Assembly: GCF_023169885.1 (NCBI RefSeq)
Contig: NZ_AP025516.1
Location: forward strand, 3,575,501 to 3,639,500
Length of the DNA stretch: 64,000 nucleotides
Source of the DNA: Desulfofustis limnaeus
GTDB taxonomy: Bacteria; Desulfobacterota; Desulfobulbia; Desulfobulbales; Desulfocapsaceae
Reading direction: 5' to 3'
Below the pieces are notes generated by a model. That model searched no databases. It had not been told where the DNA came from and saw nothing but the letters and a program-made list of their open reading frames with translations. How positions within the stretch are numbered: position 1 is the stretch's first letter; every line of letters starts with the position of its first letter. The translations under genes were made by a program, and so were the position numbers. Positions 44,500 to 63,993 of this stretch are shown here, piece after piece.

Positions 44500-46128
44500 T
44501 CAGTCGCTGATTTTCACCATGAAGGTTCGTGCCGCGCCGTCACCGGCACCACCGACGATATACTCGACCTGATAGAGAACCGAGTCCGCCATCTGCCCTG
44601 GCGTCCTGGTGCCGGTCCCGGTCAAGGCGGCAATCAGCTCCGGCGCCTTGGTCGCGGTAACTCCGCTCAGGGTGCGACTGATTGCCACCGGCAGCCGTTT
44701 GCCGTCGGCATCGACCACGTTGCCGTCCGCATCCAGGTGGGCACCGGCGATGATCGTCCCGTCAGGACGACGCACCGTACCGTCCTGATCGACGGTGACC
44801 CGCTCGCCGGCCGATGCCGCCGAACCGTCCGGCCCGGGCGTGACCAGGTGGACCGTGCCATCCGGATCAATGGACAGGTCACTGGCCGCCAACACCTGAC
44901 CGTCATCGGTTTGTACCGTACCGTCACTAGCCAGGTGGACACCGTTCAAGACGTGACCGTCCGGCGTCAGGACCCGGCCATCCCGGTCGACCAGAAAACC
45001 ACCCTTCGTCGTCTGATAGCCGTTTCCGGCGACCACCGTACCATGGGCATCAACCAGACTGCCGTCTTTCCCGGCCACCAGGCTGGCGGTATCAATCGGG
45101 TTGCCTTTAGCGTCACGAATGTGGCCGGCCGAATCAACGGTCAGCCCCCGGCCGTTCAAGACCGTGCCATTCTTGGTGACCAACAGGCCGTCGTCGGTGA
45201 GCGTGACGTTGGGATCGGTAATCACCACCCCGTCCCTGGTCACCAGCCGGCCGGAGGCATCTCGGTGGACTCCGTCCACGGCCCGGTTATGCACCTTATT
45301 CTCAGCGTCCTGCCGCAATTTACTTGCATGGGCGAACAAATCAGTCATGGCGAGGCGGGAGAAGTCCGGAGCACTGTTGTCCTCGCTGTTTTTCAAAGTG
45401 GCGATAATCGTCCCGCGCGCCTCTGCCAGACTGAGTATGGCCGCATCCTTCGGACTCACTTCCAAGGTCAGCGTCGTATAGGTGTAGCGGGGAGCCTCGG
45501 TGGCAAGCCGCCGAAACTCATCCTCGTTCGGCCGTAACCCGGTTTTGCCGGTAGCCAGAACCAGGACATCCTCCAACACCGGGATAACCATCAACCCGCC
45601 TGGACCGCTGCTGGCAGTGGCGGGATCAATCGCCTCCGGCAAGCGCGAATAAAGATCGATCCGGTTACCGGGACGGATCAGCTCCGCCATGGAATTGATC
45701 TCGTCGACCTGGATGGTAATGGCGCGGAACCCTTCGCGCACGGTGCCGGCGAAATCCCGGGGAATCTTCAGATCAATCACTTCTTCGGTGAGCATTTTGC
45801 CCTTGGCCAGCTTCTTGGTGAGCACGGCACCCGCAACCGCACTGAAGGTAGTCGGCAGAACCACATCGTCACCAACATACTCACTGGGCACCGAGCGCAC
45901 CGCCATGGTATCGTTATCGACTTTGGCCCCCGGCTCCAGATCCTGGTTGGCGACCACCACCTCGGTCATTTCCTTCGGTTTCGGGGTCAACTCCCGGCGC
46001 AGCCGTTTCTCCTCCACATGCAAAAACAACAACGTGCCGACACCGGCAAGCACGGCAAACAGTGCTGCCACCACAAAAAGCCCCCAGGGGCGAATCCGTC
46101 GTTCCTGCTCCCTTGTCTGTTCACCCAT
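44500..46128 (-). CDS. cpaB: Tad pilus protein CpaB/RcpC with D/G-rich repeat extension
   Basis: A 542-residue periplasmic protein. N-terminal TM at about 14-37, SAF domain at about 55-118 (VVVANQDLEPGAKVDNDTM) and RcpC domain to about 250, as in ordinary CpaB (about 250-330 aa). Residues about 285-480 are extra: some nine degenerate repeats of 19-26 residues with the pattern [LV]xDxxGxV[LV]...DG (for example LVDRDGRVLTPDGHVL and GTVQTDDGQVLAASDLSID). This looks like a beta-roll or solenoid and may be a species-specific adhesive or spacer part. I start at 46128; the 18-codon extension overlaps the upstream gene. Confidence 0.85.
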   Translation of the reverse strand: MGEQTREQERRIRPWGLFVVAALFAVLAGVGTLLFLHVEEKRLRRELTPKPKEMTEVVVANQDLEPGAKVDNDTMAVRSVPSEYVGDDVVLPTTFSAVAGAVLTKKLAKGKMLTEEVIDLKIPRDFAGTVREGFRAITIQVDEINSMAELIRPGNRIDLYSRLPEAIDPATASSGPGGLMVIPVLEDVLVLATGKTGLRPNEDEFRRLATEAPRYTYTTLTLEVSPKDAAILSLAEARGTIIATLKNSEDNSAPDFSRLAMTDLFAHASKLRQDAENKVHNRAVDGVHRDASGRLVTRDGVVITDPNVTLTDDGLLVTKNGTVLNGRGLTVDSAGHIRDAKGNPIDTASLVAGKDGSLVDAHGTVVAGNGYQTTKGGFLVDRDGRVLTPDGHVLNGVHLASDGTVQTDDGQVLAASDLSIDPDGTVHLVTPGPDGSAASAGERVTVDQDGTVRRPDGTIIAGAHLDADGNVVDADGKRLPVAISRTLSGVTATKAPELIAALTGTGTRTPGQMADSVLYQVEYIVGGAGDGAARTFMVKISD

Positions 46129-46178
46129 GTTTCTTCCTATTGCCGTCTGTAGTATCGAGGGTACCTTTTCAAGCTCCC

Positions 46179-46556
46179 TCACAGTTCATGCAGCAGATGT
46201 TCAAAATCCTCGATAACCTTTTTCCCCGGCCAGTCCGGTACTCCGGGCTCCGGCCAGGAAGGGTGTTCGATAAACTGCTCCAGATCGTGCAGCGCGGTCA
46301 TCACCTTTTTAACCTTATCGGCATCCTCCTCAACCTCCCGGTCGAAGGCGCTGCTCGGCGGATCGGAGATGGCCACCCCAAACGAATAGCTCCGATACTT
46401 ATCGAACATCATGGTCCGCACCATAGAGAAAAGCGACGGAGCGGCAATCAGCGACGTCACCAGTACCCCGACGACCACCAGGTATTCGACCGCCGATTGT
46501 CCTTTCTGGTTCGACCACGACAACAAACCGGTTATGCGAGTGGTGCGCGTTGCCAT
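46179..46556 (-). CDS. TadE/Flp-like minor pseudopilin
   Basis: A 125-residue protein with a class III prepilin-like N-terminus: NQKGQSAVEYLVVVGVLVTS, cleavage expected after Gly, Glu at +5 followed by Tyr as in Flp pilins. The hydrophobic helix spans about 22-45 and the rest is soluble and acidic. It is longer than Flp (under 80 aa mature), so it is probably a minor pilin. The start at 46556 lies 1 bp after the stop of the upstream periplasmic protein gene. Confidence 0.75.
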   Translation of the reverse strand: MATRTTRITGLLSWSNQKGQSAVEYLVVVGVLVTSLIAAPSLFSMVRTMMFDKYRSYSFGVAISDPPSSAFDREVEEDADKVKKVMTALHDLEQFIEHPSWPEPGVPDWPGKKVIEDFEHLLHEL

Positions 46557-55281: not shown

Positions 55282-55356
55282 AATCCTGTTATGATTACGC
55301 GGTAACCCCGTTTGGCAGAATCGGCAGCTTTCTCGGCTCACCATGCTTCCATCATC

Positions 55357-57300
55357 ATGAAAAATCCGCCAGCAAACGACAACTCCGCCCGGCGCATCAC
55401 CGACGCCATCAGCCGAGGCAAGCATGAGTGGGAGCAGACCGTCGATGCCATCGACGACATCATCACCATCATGGATGGCGACCTGCGTATTCTCAGAGCC
55501 AACCGTTCGGCGCACCGCCTGTTCGGTTATCGACTTGGAGAACTGGTGGGCAAGCACTGTCATGAAGCCTTTCATGGACGCCAGGACCCGTGCCCTCTGT
55601 GTCCGGCGACGACGGAAAACGGTGGTGACACCCGGCGGCATCTCATCCACAACGAACTCATCGACAGGACGTTTGAAATTTCTGTGTCCAAAATTCTCTC
55701 GGTTGACGGCTCGGTGAGCAGAATCGTCCAGATCGCCCGCGATGTCACCGACGCCCTGCGTCAGGAAGAGGAGCGGCAGCGATTGTCCACCGCCATCGAA
55801 CAGACTTCCGAGGTGGTCGTCATCACCGACGTGTTCGGTACCATCCAGTACATCAACCCGGCCTTTACGACGGTCACCGGTTATACCCGTGGCGAGGCCG
55901 TCGGCCAGAATATGAATCTGGTCAAAAGCAATCGCCAGGACCACACCTTTTACCGACACCTCTGGGAAACCATCCTGGCCGGCACGGTCTGGCGCGGCAG
56001 ATTGATCAATCGCCGAAAAGACGGGACACTCTACTCAGAGATGACCACCATCTCCCCGATTATCGATGCCGACGGCACCATCTCCGCCTTCGTTGCCGTC
56101 AAGCGAGACATCAGCCGTGAAGAACAGCTGGAGAAACAACTGCAGCAGGCCGCCAAGCTCGAGGCCCTCGGCACACTGGCCGGCGGCATCGCCCATGATT
56201 TCAACAATATCCTGTCGGCCATCCTCGGTTATGCCCAGATCGCCAGAAACCAGATCGACAAGAACCATCCGCTCGCCTACCCGCTGCAACACATCCAGGC
56301 CGCCGGGGAACGCGCCGCCGACCTGGTTGATCAGATTCTCACTTTCAGCCGCCAGGACCAGGGCCGGCAGCCTCTGCGTCCACTTCGAGTCCAGCCGATC
56401 ATCAAGGAAGCGCTGAGGCTGCTCCGTTCCTCCATTCCCTCGACCATCAAGCTGATTCAGCACATCGACACCGCCGCCTTGTCGATCATGGCCGATCCGG
56501 TCCAGATTCACCAAGTCATCATGAACCTCTGCACCAACGCCCGCCAGGCTATCGACAGCGAACACGGCGAGATTCGGGTCAGCTTGCGGGACGTCACCCT
56601 CGAGCCCACCGCCAGCCGGCCCGCAGGTCCGGAGCTGCCGACTGGACGCTACCTGGAATTGTGCGTCACCGACAGCGGTTGCGGTATGGACGAGCAGACC
56701 ATGCAACGCATCTTCGATCCTTTTTTCACCACGAAACCAAAGGACCGCGGCACCGGCCTCGGCCTGGCCGTGGTGCATGGTATCGTCAAGACCCATCAGG
56801 GTCATATCGAGGTCTCCAGCCTGCCTGGTCAGGGAACGACGTTTACCGTGCTGCTGCCGGCCATCGAAGATCGGCGATCGGCCGAGGTGAACGTGAGTCC
56901 CCCGGTCCGCGGCGGCAGCGAGAACATCTTGCTGGTGGACGATGAACACCAGTTGACCGATATGCTGACCCGGGTCCTCGAGCGACTCGGCTACCGGGTT
57001 ACGGCCTTCAACGACAGCCTCGACGCCGCTCGCTGTTTTCGCGACAACAGCGGAGACTTCGACCTGGTGATCACCGACATGACCATGCCCAACATGACCG
57101 GGGCGGAACTGGCCAGCGAAATGCTGGCCCTTCGTTCCACCTTGCCGGTTATCCTGGTTACCGGCTACAACGAACGCATCAACCGGGAAACGGCCCTGCA
57201 CCTAGGTGTCCGGGAATTTCTCAGCAAGCCGCTCCGCAAAGACGACCTGGCCCGAACCATCCGGGAGATACTTGATCATGGCGGACATCCTGATCATTGA
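55357..57300 (+). CDS. Soluble PAS-PAS hybrid histidine kinase with receiver
   Basis: A 647-residue cytosolic kinase. PAS1 (about 25-140) carries the Cys-rich signature GKHCHEAFHGRQDPCPLCPA, seen in many deltaproteobacterial sensors and possibly redox- or metal-linked. PAS2 spans about 145-265 (VFGTIQYINPAFTTVTGYTR). HisKA has GGIAHDFNNILSAILGYAQI; HATPase has NLCTNARQAID, DSGCGM and GTGLGLAVVHG. The C-terminal receiver holds ILLVDDEHQL and the phospho-Asp in LVITDMTMPNMTG. Overlaps the next regulator gene by 23 bp, so they form a pair. Start at 55357; an in-frame TTG 15 codons earlier is possible. Confidence 0.9.
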   Translation: MKNPPANDNSARRITDAISRGKHEWEQTVDAIDDIITIMDGDLRILRANRSAHRLFGYRLGELVGKHCHEAFHGRQDPCPLCPATTENGGDTRRHLIHNELIDRTFEISVSKILSVDGSVSRIVQIARDVTDALRQEEERQRLSTAIEQTSEVVVITDVFGTIQYINPAFTTVTGYTRGEAVGQNMNLVKSNRQDHTFYRHLWETILAGTVWRGRLINRRKDGTLYSEMTTISPIIDADGTISAFVAVKRDISREEQLEKQLQQAAKLEALGTLAGGIAHDFNNILSAILGYAQIARNQIDKNHPLAYPLQHIQAAGERAADLVDQILTFSRQDQGRQPLRPLRVQPIIKEALRLLRSSIPSTIKLIQHIDTAALSIMADPVQIHQVIMNLCTNARQAIDSEHGEIRVSLRDVTLEPTASRPAGPELPTGRYLELCVTDSGCGMDEQTMQRIFDPFFTTKPKDRGTGLGLAVVHGIVKTHQGHIEVSSLPGQGTTFTVLLPAIEDRRSAEVNVSPPVRGGSENILLVDDEHQLTDMLTRVLERLGYRVTAFNDSLDAARCFRDNSGDFDLVITDMTMPNMTGAELASEMLALRSTLPVILVTGYNERINRETALHLGVREFLSKPLRKDDLARTIREILDHGGHPDH

Positions 57301-58660
57301 CGACGACACCGTGCTCTGCTCGATGCTCTACGAGCAGATTTCGATGGCCGGCCACCAGGCTGCCCAGGCCCATACCCTGGCCGCCGGTTCGTGCCTTGTC
57401 GAGGAGAACGGCTACGACGTCATCCTGCTCGATGTGCAACTACCCGACGGCAGTGGCCTCGAGCACATCGCCGGGTTCAAGCGCAGCCGATCGGAGCCGG
57501 AGGTCATCATCATCACCGGCCAGGGCGAAGCCGACGGCGCCGAACGGGCGATCCTCAGCGGCGCCTGGAGCTATATCGCCAAACCGCATGTCATCCGGGA
57601 ATTGGATCTGCACCTGGCGCGGGCCCTCCAGTATCGACGAGAACGGCAGAAGATCACCGAAATACCGGTAGCGCTTAAGCGCAGCCGCATCGTCGGCAGC
57701 AGCAGCGCCATCAATCGCTGCCTCGACCAGGTGGCCCGGGCCGCCTCCTCGGATGCGTCGGTGTTGATCACCGGGCCGACCGGCACCGGCAAAGAACTCT
57801 TCGCCAAGGCCATCCACGAAAACAGCCGCCGCGCCGAGTCCGCCTTCATTATCGTCGACTGTGCCGCCCTTCCGGAAACCCTCATCGAGAGCACCCTCTT
57901 CGGCCATGTGAAAGGCGCCTTCACCAACGCCGAACGCGACCATGACGGCCTGGTCAAGCATGCTCACAAAGGGACCCTGTTTCTCGACGAGGTCGGCGAG
58001 CTGCCACTCTCCATCCAGAAGACCTTTCTCCGCGTTCTCCAAGAGCATGAGTACCGACCGGTCGGCTCGAGCCGGTCGCACTACAGCGATTTTCGGTTGG
58101 TGGCAGCCACCAACCGCAATCTCGACGCCCTGGTGGCCGACGGGAGGTTTCGGGCAGACCTGCTCTTTCGCCTCAAAGCCTTCACGATCGATCTGCCGCC
58201 GTTGAGCACCCGCACCGAAGACCTGCGCGAGCTGACCACCCATTTCATGAACGACGTCTGCCAGCGCTATGGACTTGAGAGCAAAGGTTTCAGTAGCGAT
58301 TTCCTGGAGACCCTGGCCTCCTACGATTGGCCCGGCAACGTCCGGGAACTGGCTCAGGTTATGGAACAGGTGTTCACCAATCCGCAGCTCGGCCCCACCT
58401 GCTTTTCCATACACCTCCCGGAACAATTCCGGATCAAACAGCTTCGCGCCGGCTTTGAAAAGCGAGCAGCCACCGGCGCCCCTCGATCAAGCACCCTTCC
58501 CCCCTGGCGCGATTTCAAAGACCTCAGCGAAGTCGACTACCTGCATCGGCTTCGCGCCGCTGCCGCCGGTGATATCGCCAAGGCCTGCAGGCTCTCGGGC
58601 CTGTCTCGCTCCCGCCTCTATCAAATGCTCAGTAAACACCAACTGAGCATAACCGGATAA
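57278..58660 (+). CDS. Sigma-54 response regulator with variant GAFTNA loop
   Basis: A 460-residue NtrC-type regulator. Receiver 1-120 with LIIDDD and phospho-acceptor D52 (VILLDVQLPDGSG). The AAA+ domain (about 137-360) has Walker A TGPTGTGKE and Walker B LFLDEVGE, but the sigma-54 contact loop reads GAFTNA (213-218) instead of GAFTGA. The Fis-type HTH (GDIAKACRLSGLSRSRLYQML) ends the protein. It is coupled to the hybrid kinase upstream. A sigma-54-like promoter (58829-58844) and a perfect dyad (58691-58716) lie just downstream, so the chemosensory genes are its probable target. Confidence 0.9.
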   Translation: MADILIIDDDTVLCSMLYEQISMAGHQAAQAHTLAAGSCLVEENGYDVILLDVQLPDGSGLEHIAGFKRSRSEPEVIIITGQGEADGAERAILSGAWSYIAKPHVIRELDLHLARALQYRRERQKITEIPVALKRSRIVGSSSAINRCLDQVARAASSDASVLITGPTGTGKELFAKAIHENSRRAESAFIIVDCAALPETLIESTLFGHVKGAFTNAERDHDGLVKHAHKGTLFLDEVGELPLSIQKTFLRVLQEHEYRPVGSSRSHYSDFRLVAATNRNLDALVADGRFRADLLFRLKAFTIDLPPLSTRTEDLRELTTHFMNDVCQRYGLESKGFSSDFLETLASYDWPGNVRELAQVMEQVFTNPQLGPTCFSIHLPEQFRIKQLRAGFEKRAATGAPRSSTLPPWRDFKDLSEVDYLHRLRAAAAGDIAKACRLSGLSRSRLYQMLSKHQLSITG

Positions 58661-58828: not shown

Positions 58829-58844
58829 TGGCATGATAGCTGCT
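58829..58844 (+). promoter_or_regulatory. Sigma-54-type promoter of the chemosensory operon
   Basis: TGGCATG-ATAG-CTGCT: -24 element perfect, 10 bp between GG and GC correct, -12 CTGC with one mismatch to TTGC. It is 70 bp before the start codon at 58914. Confidence 0.65.
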
Positions 58845-58913
58845 TTTCATGAGCAGCCGGAAGTCATTCTCAACCAGACTTTCGAAAACGAAGATTGCCC
58901 GAGCCAGGTTGCC

Positions 58914-59354
58914 ATGAACACTTTTTTTTATTCCGCCCGAAGAGCGCTCTGTCCGGCAGACTGCTCTTTTCCCGACTGCGCCGAGCGCTGCCTGTACGTT
59001 CTGCAGCAATTGCCGGCCTTGGCCGGGATACAACCGTTGCCGAACGGCACGCTATTCCCGCTTTCTCCGACAATTCCGTTGCGCAGCGGCGACCTGATCG
59101 TCATCCACGTCGCCACCATAAAGGAGTTGGAAACCCTGGTCGACGCCCATCAGGCTCTGGATCCATACCGTTTGGTTCTGATCGTCAATGACGAAGTCTA
59201 CGACTCGAGCCGCCGTTATCACCTGCTGAACCCACGTTACATCACGACGACAGGGCAAGCCGCTGAACAACTGGATCCGGTTGTCCGGCGGATCATCGGT
59301 CAGCCGGCACCGTATCGCTCAGCGGGATGCCAGGCCGTTTCAACGCCATCATGA
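58914..59354 (+). CDS. Cys-rich receiver-like (pseudo-receiver) small protein
   Basis: A 146-residue soluble protein without a clear family. Residues about 10-30 hold four Cys (ALCPADCSFPDCAERC), suggesting a metal or redox site. The rest alternates strands and helices like a receiver domain (GDLIVIHVATIKELETLVDA; PYRLVLIVNDEVYD; RYITTTGQAAEQLDPVVRRII) but lacks the acidic pocket and phospho-Asp, so it would be a pseudo-receiver. The ATG at 58914 is my choice; the frame is open to 58833. First gene after the sigma-54-type promoter and 11 bp upstream of the triple-CheW gene. Confidence 0.65.
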   Translation: MNTFFYSARRALCPADCSFPDCAERCLYVLQQLPALAGIQPLPNGTLFPLSPTIPLRSGDLIVIHVATIKELETLVDAHQALDPYRLVLIVNDEVYDSSRRYHLLNPRYITTTGQAAEQLDPVVRRIIGQPAPYRSAGCQAVSTPS

Positions 59355-59365
59355 GGTGCCACGTT

Positions 59366-60904
59366 ATGTCTCAGGAACAGCTGTTCGCCTCGTTTGTCTT
59401 GGATCGCAGCCAGGATCTGGAGATCGCGCTCAAAGCGGAACAGGTAGCCGAGGCCACGACCATTCAGGGAACCATCCGTACCCTGCCGGGGGGTGTTGCC
59501 TTTCTCGAAGGTATCATGCACCTGCGCGATGACGTCATCCCCATCATCAACCTGAAACGGCGGCTCGGCCTTGAGCCGTGCGACTACGGAGATGATGCCA
59601 AGGTGGCGGTGGTGTCCCTGCATCATCAACGCTTCGGCCTCCTGTTCGATGACATCAAGGAGGTGTTTCGCGCCGAGGCCGCACTCATTTCCCCGATCAG
59701 CGCCGCGCTGCAGACCAGCGACCGGGTCATCTCCTCGTTGATCAAACTGGAAAACGGCCGACGGATGGTGGAGCTGCTTGATCTGAAGCATCTCTTCGAG
59801 CAGGACCTGGTCGACCTCCAGGATCAGCTCGAAACCTCGCGCCAGACCACTGTATCCGGTCCACCGGTCACCTATGCCCGTTACGTCATCTTCATCTGTG
59901 CCGGTCAGCAATACGGGGTTGCGGTGGAAAACGCCCGGGAGATCACCTTCTGTACCAACATCAACGACTTGTTCCGCACCGGCATGATCGAGGGGGCCAT
60001 CGAGCTGCGCGGCCGCACCATCCCCGTCCTGTCCGCACGCGCCTTGCTGAGCAGCCAGTCTGTCCAGGACGGACGCAGGACCGAAGATGAAAGAATCCTG
60101 GTTCTCTCCGATGACGATTGTGTCATCGGCATCGTCGTCGACCAGGTCGTGGATATCATGTCCGTCGGCTCTGATCGGGTGTTGCCGTTTCCCAGCGGCC
60201 AGGACGACAACGTCACCGGCCTGTTCTCCCGCCCCACCGGCGAGAACGTTATCCTGCTCAACATCCGCAACCTGATCTGCGACCAGATCGACAGCATCAA
60301 GTCCATGGCCAGAATCAACAGTTCGGTTCCCGACGGTGCTGCCAAGAAGAATGAGGCCACCCAACGGCAGCAGCGGACAACCCATCACCTGATCACCGAA
60401 AACTGCTACCTGATCTTTTCCATCGGCAAGCGATTCGCCATCGAGATCAAGGACGTCCGGGAAATTATCGAGGCTACCGGAATCATGCGGATCCCCGGGG
60501 CCGACGGCTTCAGCACCGGAGTCATCAACCTGCGCGGGGAAGTGGTCCCGGTCATCGACCTGCGCTGTTTCCTCCATTACCAGGACCGCGACGACGGCGA
60601 GACCGGCAGACTGATCATCTGCAGCGGACACGGGAAAACCGTGGCCCTGCAGGTGGACCATATCGTCACCATTTACAAGCAGGAGCAGTATCACGCCACG
60701 CCGTCCTTGAACCCGCAGCTGAACGATCGCCGGGACACGCTGGATCGGCTTATCGAGCACTTCGATCTGAACGGCCTGAAGGAACACGTTCTGGTGATCA
60801 ACACACACAACCTGATCCGCCATCACCTCAGCTCCGAACCAGCTGGTGAACCGGTGATACACAGAGAAAACGACCACGATTCGGAACCATTCGAAAACTC
60901 ATAA
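59366..60904 (+). CDS. Triple-CheW-domain scaffold protein
   Basis: A 512-residue protein with three consecutive CheW folds: about 8-150 ([21 protein letters not shown]), 165-325 ([20 protein letters not shown]) and 345-495 ([20 protein letters not shown]). The [NH]LRGxxxPVI[DN]L element is diagnostic. CheW couples chemoreceptors to the CheA kinase. Three fused copies could crosslink receptors into arrays without equal numbers of CheA. No cheA is in view. Start at 59366 follows GAGGTG; the receptor gene follows after 17 bp. Confidence 0.9.
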
Positions 60905-60921
60905 TATCGAGGGGACACACC

Positions 60922-63900
60922 ATGGAAACAGCACAAAAACCCAACGCAGTGGACACTTCCTGTCTGAATCTGGTGAGTATGCCGAGCTTCATCGTCGGCG
61001 ACGACCGAGTCATCTCCTGGGCCAACGACAGCTTCTGGAAGACCTTCAACCTCAAGCCTGCCGAGGTGATCGACAAGATGACCTGTGAAGAGGCCTGCCC
61101 CTCGAATCTATGCGGCACCAAGGATTGCGTGGTGGCCAAAGCGTCCCGCATCAAAAAAGCGGCCGAGGCGGAGGTGATCCGCAAGTCAGGAGACCAGTTC
61201 ACCTTCTATCAGGCCAAAGCGGTGCCGATGAACGGCAAAGGCAGTGGAACCTTCGTCTCTTTGAGCGATATCAGCGAACTGAAGGCCACCCAGGCCTCGC
61301 TGCGCCAGATGCAGACCGATCTCAACGTCATCCCCACGCCGATCATGGAGATCGATACCACCTTCACCATCACCTTCATGAATCCGGCCGGCGCCTCGAT
61401 CGTCGACATGACACCGGACGAGGTGCTCGGGAAGAAATGCTACAACCTGTTCAAGACACCGCATTGCAAGACCGACAAATGCGCCTGCGCCCGCGCCATG
61501 AAGACCGACTCGGTGATCTCCGAGCAGACCATCGCCCGACCCAAGGACGGGATCATCATCCCCATCAAATATACCGGCGCCCCGATCAAGGACGCCAAGG
61601 GCAATATCAAAGGGGCGCTCGAATACATTCTTGATGTCACTGAGGAGATGAAGCAGAAACAGGCCGCCGACGAGAAGATCGAGAACCTCAACACCATCCC
61701 CACCCCGATCATGGCCATCGACACCGGGTTCACCGTCACCTTCATGAACCCGACCGCAGCTGCCGTGGTCGGCTCCACCCCGGATGAAGTGCTCGGCAAG
61801 AAGTGCTACGACCTGTTCAAGACGCCGCATTGCCAGACCGACAAGTGCGCCTGCGCCCGCGCCATGAAGACCGACGCGGTGGTCACCGAGCAGACCATCG
61901 CCCGACCCGCCGACGGTGTCATTATTCCCATCAAGTACACCGGCGCCCCGATCAAGGACGCCAAGGGCAATATCAAAGGAGCGCTCGAATACGTCCTCGA
62001 CGTCACCGAGGAGATGAAGCAGAAGCAGGCCGCCGACGAGAAGATCGAGAACCTCAACACCATCCCCACCCCGATCATGGCCCTTGATACCGAGTTCAGC
62101 ATCACCTACATGAACCCGGCCGCCGCCGCCGTGGTCGGTTCGACACCCGATGAAGTACTCGGCAAGAAGTGCTACGACCTGTTCAAGACGCCGCACTGCA
62201 AGACTGACAAATGCGCCTGCGCCCGGGCCATGAAGACCGACTCGGTGGTCACCGAACAGACCATCGCCCGGCCGGCCGAGGGGGTCATCATCCCCATCAA
62301 GTACACCGGCGCCCCAATCAAGGACGCCAAGGGCAACATCAAGGGAGCGCTCGAATACGTCCTCGACGTCACCGAGGAGATGAAGCAGAAACAAGCGGCC
62401 GACGAGAAGATCGAGAACCTCAACACCATCCCCACCCCGATCATGGCCCTTGATACCGAGTTCAGCATCACCTTCATGAACCCGGCCGCCGCCGCCGTGG
62501 TCGGCTCCACGCCGGACGAGGTGCTCGGCAAGAAGTGCTACGACCTGTTCAAGACGCCGCACTGCCAGACCGACAAATGCGCCTGCGCCCGCGCCATGAA
62601 GACCGACTCGGTAGTCACCGAGCAGACCATCGCCCGGCCGGCCGAGGGGGTCATCATCCCCATCAAGTACACCGGCGCCCCGATTAAGGACGCCAAGGGC
62701 AACATCAAAGGGGCGCTCGAATACGTCCTCGACGTCACCGAAGAGATGAAGCAGAAACAAGCGGCCGACGAGAAGATCGAGAACCTCAACACCATCCCGA
62801 CGCCGATCCTGTCCGTGGATACCGATTTCACCATCACCTTCATCAACCCGGCCGGTGCTGCCGTTGCCGGTATGAGTCCGGATCAGGCCGTCGGCAAGAA
62901 ATGTTACGACCTGTTCCGCACCGATCACTGCCGTACCGACAAATGCGCGTGCGCCCGGGCCATGAAGACCGATTCCGTGGTCAGCGAGCAGACAACGGCC
63001 AACCCAGCCGGTCGGCAGATGCCGATCAAATACACCGGCGCCCCGATCAAGGACGCCAAAGGCAATATCAAAGGCGCTCTGGAATACATCACCGACGTCA
63101 CGGCAGAGAAAGAAGTGGAACGGCTGATTGCCAGCTCGGTTGCCGAGGTGGACACGCTGGTGGGGGCATCACGCCAACAGATGGATGAAGCCAACAGTCA
63201 GGTGGACGAAATGAACGCCATCATCGACGAGGCGGTCCGCCAACTCGACGATTCGATGCAGACCGTCCAGGCGATGCTGAAGAGCTCCAACGAGATGCTT
63301 GGTTTATCGAAGGAATCAAACAAACTGGCCGCCAGCCTGGCCAAGGAGGCGGAAACCGGCAAGAACGCGGGCCGCGATGCCGGCAGGAAACTGGCCGACA
63401 TCAACGCCACCATGCAGAAGAACAACGAGATGGTCGCCGGGTTGGTCGGTCAGTTGGAGAAGATCTCCAGCTTCGTCGACATCATCAAGGAGATCGCCTC
63501 CCAGACCAACCTGCTGGCCTTCAACGCTGCCATTGAAGCGGCCCGTGCCGGCGACGCCGGGCGAGGCTTTGCCGTGGTCGCCGACGAGGTGCGCAAGCTG
63601 GCTGAGAACAGCTCCAAATCAGCCATCGATATCTCGAACATCGTCAAGAACGTGGAAAAAGAGTCGCACCAGACGATCAACGCCATGCAGGAGGGCATGA
63701 AGATGCTCACCGAAGGTGGTCGGGTTATCAATACCGCTCTCGATTCGATGGAGGAGATTTCCAAAGGTATCGGCACTATTACCTCCGCCGTGGATAAGGT
63801 GAGCAGCCAGGCCGAGGGGCTCAACACTGACGGAACGCTGGTCATGAACAAGATTGAAACGGTGGCCTCGTCATCGAAAAAGAACCAGCAGTCAACGGTG

Positions 63901-63993
63901 GCCGTCAATCAGGCCCTTTCCGAGACGGTGGCGGCCATGACGCAGCTGATGGCCTCCAGCAAGGAACTGCAGGAAGCAGTCAACAACCGGTAA
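60922..63993 (+). CDS. Soluble methyl-accepting chemoreceptor with six PAS domains
   Basis: A 1023-residue cytosolic receptor with no TM helices. A divergent N-terminal PAS (about 10-125, with [15 protein letters not shown]) is followed by five near-identical PAS units of 122 residues (about 135-740). Most of these carry [12 protein letters not shown] then a C-x4-C-x-C cluster ([13 protein letters not shown]). The linker ...[15 protein letters not shown] between units is coiled-coil-like. From about 745 the antiparallel signalling hairpin follows, with the conserved tip [20 protein letters not shown] then [19 protein letters not shown]. It probably senses redox state, metal or a diffusible cytoplasmic ligand and signals through the adjacent triple-CheW. 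Strong ribosome-binding site (GAGGGG). Confidence 0.93.
61330..63150 (+). repeat. Five tandem 366-bp PAS-coding repeats
   Basis: The anchor ATCCC[C/G]AC[G/C]CCGATC begins at 61330, 61696, 62062, 62428 and 62794: exactly 366 bp apart each time. Units 2-4 are nearly identical at nucleotide level; units 1 and 5 diverge, the last having ILSVDTDF and a changed Cys segment. This indicates recent amplification or gene conversion in the centre. Confidence 0.92.

Follow-up and report, generated by a model that had tools for sequence, protein, structure and literature searches.

The receptor gene, its neighbours and the PAS array

We analysed a window of 64,000 nucleotides from the genome of Desulfofustis limnaeus, a single contig of 4.23 Mb. 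Among named relatives, Desulfofustis glycolicus (Desulfocapsaceae) is the closest. At the end of the window lies an open reading frame for a soluble chemoreceptor of 1023 amino acids (60922..63993, + strand) with Pfam matches to PAS_9, PAS_4 and MCPsignal. Its product consists of an N-terminal PAS domain, five PAS units of 122 amino acids and an MCP signalling hairpin; Pfam delimits six PAS stretches (PAS_9, E = 1.4e-88) and one MCPsignal domain (PF00015, E = 3.9e-36) with the canonical conserved tip, and this combination bears out the assignment as a chemoreceptor in the preliminary description of this DNA. The hairpin (63127..63990, + strand) starts directly after unit 5 and has about 20 heptads per arm, with 136 and about 148 residues on either side of the tip. 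No HAMP domain was matched in the receptor, and no consensus methylation site was matched by strict or relaxed patterns, which are not exhaustive. The highest mean hydropathy over 19 residues was only 1.23, so that we expect no membrane segment and predict a cytoplasmic receptor.

The gene is preceded on the same strand by one for a triple-CheW protein (59327..60904; three Pfam CheW stretches), a conserved partner that adjoins the receptor gene in 16 of 16 loci. Beyond the window edge lie genes for a GNAT acetyltransferase (PF13302, Acetyltransf_3; genome 3639548-3640111, equivalent to window 64048-64611; L042:549-1112) and an HDAC-family deacetylase (PF00850, E = 5.1e-91; genome 3640104-3641129; L042:1105-2130), whose reading frames overlap by 8 bases. 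No CheA is encoded in the cassette, and two matches to the CheA dimerisation domain were found elsewhere in the genome. Upstream of the CheW gene, again on the + strand, are a small protein with no Pfam match (58833..59354; present at this place in 7 of 16 loci), a sigma-54 response regulator (57206..58660; a close homologue upstream in 9 of 16 loci) and, adjoining the latter, a hybrid histidine kinase (55312..57300) whose first PAS domain bears a related Cys motif, GKHCHEAFHGRQDPCPLCP. The small conserved protein may be a degenerate receiver domain. Elsewhere in the window, an open reading frame at 44500-46182, beside pilus-assembly-like genes, carries a long run of irregular 'DGxLVxxDGxxV' repeats in the middle of the protein.

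Tandem Repeats Finder reported one array within the receptor gene (61321-63101; period 366, 4.9 copies, 0% indels, score 2513). The five units, all on the + strand, each hold a Cys cluster: unit 1 at 61309..61674 (cluster 61438-61488), unit 2 at 61675..62040 (61804-61854), unit 3 at 62041..62406 (62170-62220), unit 4 at 62407..62772 (62536-62586) and unit 5 at 62773..63138 (62902-62952). Start-to-start spacing was 366 bp all four times, confirming the exact period and the five units described earlier. Near identity had also been described for the centre of the array, and this holds for units 2-4, compared as units of 122 codons (DNA identity 95.1% for 3 vs 4, 92.1% for 2 vs 4 and 90.7% for 2 vs 3), but not for the diverged unit 5, which is only 56-62% identical to all other units. 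Unit 1 shares 82-84% with units 2-4. The score and the lack of indels led us to reject chance similarity, and an assembly artefact was rejected because the genome is a single contig, the copies differ at synonymous sites and the array occurs in orthologues from other finished genomes.

We compared repeat number between species, with one genome per species. Orthologues contained 3 units (L072, a frame of 781 amino acids), 4 (909-918), 5 (about 1024-1048), 6 (1146-1166) or 7 (L045, a frame of 1284), so the suggestion that repeat number varies proved correct at this level. In a tree of units, the central units 2-4 grouped by species (the window genome, D. glycolicus, MAG9, G018 and G022). First units, including unit 1 here, largely joined the first units of other species, and most last units, including unit 5, joined other species' last units. 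In comparison with D. glycolicus, the N-terminal PAS of the window genome has a dS of 0.83, unit 1 of 0.87, unit 5 of 0.50 and the hairpin of 1.0; for central units dS was 0.22-0.38 within the window genome vs 0.46-0.78 between the two genomes. Among the central units of one gene, dN/dS was ~0.03-0.10. Clustering of the central units by species, with orthologous ends, is the pattern of concerted evolution through intragenic recombination of the central units with the ends fixed, in keeping with the recombination proposed at the outset.

Cysteine clusters and the fold of the PAS units

The described motif C-x8-C-x4-C-x-C is present in 5 of 5 units, and the separate cluster C-x3-C-x4-C-x4-C was likewise recovered in the N-terminal PAS (C55, C59, C64 and C69; 61084..61128, + strand), where all four residues are invariant in 8 aligned five-unit orthologues. 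Within that cluster C55, C64 and C69 themselves form C-x8-C-x4-C; one Cys frame is therefore common to all six PAS domains, which differ only in the position of the fourth Cys. The six clusters account for 24 of the receptor's 25 cysteines, and the signalling hairpin has none. C44, C53 and C58 were kept in 197 of 197 distinct full-length units and C60 in 142, a partly dependent test in that the units were located by a profile with no Cys required, within loci retrieved for their resemblance to units that bear Cys. In the repeat units the fourth Cys is dispensable, and C-x8-C-x4-C is the constant core. Across 51 aligned units, which take in Cys-PAS domains from other proteins, only N25, G41, C44, C53, C58 and E105 were invariant.

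In an AlphaFold model of unit 3 (mean pLDDT 95.5), C44 opens a short helix, the loop after it contains C53, and C58 and C60 sit where the next helix begins. This predicted geometry brings C44, C53 and C58/C60 within one local region; the full-length model (pLDDT 44.6) was not used. Three invariant cysteines in one region of a PAS fold fit a metal, iron-sulfur or thiol site, as suggested earlier. The best fold matches of the unit in the PDB were PAS and LOV domains, the closest being LOV, NifL and DosP PAS. In a profile alignment, C44 fell on the Cys of the CRFLQ motif in 6rhg, the residue that points into the pocket in LOV domains. The LOV motif NCRFLQ itself was not found in the units, which read KCYDLF and have the Cys alone in common with it. 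CxxCH was absent from the PAS units, and the conserved heme-ligating His of FixL, DosP and Aer2 had no counterpart, as no His was invariant across the 51 units; the His preceding C53 is substituted in last units and in distant members. We rejected a LOV or heme PAS identity because the defining residues are missing from the units.

Other chemoreceptors of the phylum have the C-x8-C-x4-C core as well, and related three-Cys PAS motifs are found elsewhere in the D. limnaeus genome. Other regulators of this genome (at L002 and L011) carry a C-x8-C-x3-C variant, for example GRYCWEVFRSNMCEGDCAL. The named hosts of the array belong to the Desulfocapsaceae, the Desulfobulbaceae and relatives, which are sulfur-cycling anaerobes. 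Relatives of the receptor were absent from viral contigs and plasmids held only distant PAS/MCP matches (<60% identity), and we therefore rejected a viral or plasmid origin.

The gene cassette and its acetyltransferase-deacetylase pair

The order triple-CheW, receptor, GNAT and HDAC on one strand was kept in all of the 16 loci that we examined, two of which are copies in a single genome (G129; L110 and L111). Both copies are full cassettes, with separate CheW, receptor, GNAT and HDAC genes. Array units, defined by a match of E < 1e-55, were present in 43 of 258 genomes of the order. Both enzymes (HDAC, E <= 1e-85; GNAT, E <= 1e-30) were found in 41 of these 43 vs 0 of the 215 genomes lacking the array (Fisher p about 1e-45, a value that ignores the relatedness of the genomes). 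The two arrays that break this rule are situated at the end of a contig or close to it. Outside the order, four genomes had strong array units, all with both enzymes on the array contig. The GNAT was missing from seven genomes checked that have distant Cys-PAS proteins only. Among the conserved genes of the cassette we saw none for metal resistance or metal transport.

The GNAT and the HDAC-family protein lie side by side at 16 loci as an AcuA/AcuC-like gene pair with intact catalytic HDAC motifs; the catalytic and zinc-ligand motifs PGHHA, D-x-HHG, G[YF]D and GGY are invariant in 11 aligned orthologues. By sequence, the HDAC is nearest to HDAC6-type enzymes and bacterial HDAC-like amidohydrolases, while no NCBIfam match settles the identity of the GNAT, which had no solved-structure match by sequence. 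Acetyltransferase and deacetylase may chemically adjust the receptor system, and their putative targets may be the receptor, CheW, CheY, a metabolic enzyme or a small molecule (e.g. polyamines). CheY reportedly acetylates itself (Barak 2006, cited in PMC11254643).

A lysine-bearing stretch, KDAKGNIK (62320..62343, + strand, in unit 3), stands at the same place in every unit and is near-invariant in array receptors. K97 was kept in 66 of 66 array units and K101 in 63 of 66, and KDAKGNIKG hardly varies, the diverged last units included. Among 19 distant Cys-PAS units, Ile, Val or Leu occupied position 101, and position 97 was most commonly Gln, Glu or Ser. We infer that K97 and K101 are candidate acetylation sites. 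A search of the open literature, which mostly leaves aside subscription papers, returned no relevant study of Cys-PAS arrays or of HDAC with chemotaxis operons.

Proposed mechanism and comparison with known systems

We propose a cytoplasmic chemoreceptor for redox, oxygen or sulfur, with a site of three or four cysteines in each PAS domain that is most likely an iron-sulfur site, and with signalling via the triple-CheW protein to CheA; we give this reading an even chance. The sequences themselves establish the domain anatomy, the conserved Cys positions, the variation in repeat number, the concerted evolution and the conserved gene cassette; we infer the cofactor, the signal, the direction of the response and any benefit of multiple units. 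The receptor would sense redox state, oxygen or reactive sulfur species. Each of the six PAS domains would hold a Cys3 (often Cys4) site beside its pocket, most likely an iron-sulfur cluster labile to oxygen or redox change, and a change at these sites would be relayed from PAS to PAS via helical linkers into the MCP hairpin, which would act on a CheA encoded elsewhere through the neighbouring triple-CheW protein. Central units are duplicated, lost and homogenised by intragenic recombination, while the first unit, adjoining the N-terminal PAS, and the last, adjoining the hairpin, stay fixed.

With only three cysteines invariant, a thiolate metal site or thiol redox chemistry also fits. The cysteines could form disulfides or persulfides on meeting oxidants, sulfide or polysulfide, as a metal-free switch, and both the sulfur-cycling hosts and the presence of three invariant and one optional Cys per domain are consistent with this. 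Three exactly spaced cysteines kept throughout the phylum are, however, more than a two-Cys switch needs, and the constancy of the C-x8-C-x4-C spacing speaks for a site that holds a metal or a cluster; we regard such a switch as unlikely. The same three thiolates are usual in soft-metal sites, and the fourth ligand varies. The site might thus bind an ion of a metal or metalloid, either structural zinc or a soft metal as the ligand, making the protein a zinc-stabilised or a metal chemoreceptor. The conserved cassette genes include none for metal resistance or transport, which argues against this, and we hold it to be improbable.

A further reading concerns the pocket: a classical PAS cofactor, either flavin (as in LOV and Aer) or heme (as in FixL, DosP and Aer2), with the cysteines secondary. 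The closeness of the fold to LOV, NifL and DosP PAS and the place of C44 at the LOV cysteine speak for it, but NCRFLQ is lost beyond the Cys and neither CxxCH nor an invariant His is present, and we consider it highly improbable. Most units might instead be passive spacers, their number a length polymorphism driven by recombination, with the N-terminal PAS or the last unit alone sensing. Free variation between 3 and 7 units and the conservation of the terminal units by position would agree with this; against it, the low dN/dS points to strong purifying selection on the central units and the Cys core is kept in all units, and we put little weight on the spacer reading, about as little as on a metal-ion site.

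The enzyme pair just past the window edge raises the interest of the receptor beyond what had been described before. The cassette could be a chemosensory module that is reversibly acetylated by enzymes of its own, in which the GNAT would add and the HDAC remove acetyl groups on the receptor or CheW, plausibly at K97 and K101 in the DAKGNIKG loop of each unit. Such a module would link a redox receptor to acetyl-CoA or energy state and provide adaptation alongside methylation or instead of it, and the number of repeats would determine how many sites can be modified; we offer this as a doubtful proposal. The strict genomic pairing of the receptor with GNAT and HDAC makes it a testable question whether a chemosensory array has dedicated reversible acetylation. 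Near-identical, recombining sensory domains also form a natural series, from 3 to 7 units, in which the tuning of sensitivity by sensor number could be studied, in a Cys-PAS family that is widespread among sulfate-reducing and sulfur-cycling bacteria.

Among known sensors, the iron-sulfur PAS proteins NreB and AirS do not match the C-x8-C-x4-C(-x-C) spacing of the receptor. In NreB, a histidine kinase of Staphylococcus, the spacing is C-x2-C-x11-C-x2-C. AirS, a known iron-sulfur kinase, has C-x7-C-x-C-x17-C (PMC4601167), and the PAS domain of NreB, with its four cysteines, carries an oxygen-labile [4Fe-4S] cluster (PMC4601167, PMC8534201). The receptor shares with NreB a group of four cysteines in a cytoplasmic PAS and would be alike in working if a cluster is bound, but it has only three invariant Cys, its output is an MCP hairpin rather than a kinase, and it has six domains in series. 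Because the Cys spacing differs, we do not class it with NreB, though it may work like NreB. LOV photoreceptors are alike in the alignment of C44 with the LOV Cys and in the many LOV domains among the nearest folds; the receptor units differ in lacking the flavin-contact residues of NCRFLQ and in having two or three extra cysteines.

Soluble receptors of the Aer2 type resemble this one in being cytoplasmic and in having tandem PAS domains that signal into an MCP hairpin, and the Aer2 model matched the receptor in part (score 122.7 vs a cut-off of 1200). The receptor differs from them in having no HAMP match and no conserved heme-type ligand, and in its near-identical, recombining PAS copies with Cys clusters. 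Cys-PAS proteins of the Desulfobacterota with scattered copies have the same C-x8-C-x4-C core, but these proteins, of about 830-1350 amino acids, contain a single copy or two copies set apart, with no tandem array; the uninterrupted tandem array is the distinguishing trait of this receptor family. For the enzyme pair, the nearest parallel is the Acu system of Bacillus, in which a GNAT (AcuA) and an HDAC-like protein (AcuC) are encoded together (PMC13121692); this pair is known to act on a protein lysine (PMC13121692, PMC11254643). Unlike in the Acu system, the neighbours of the pair in the cassette are a chemoreceptor and a CheW gene, and the GNAT belongs to Acetyltransf_3.
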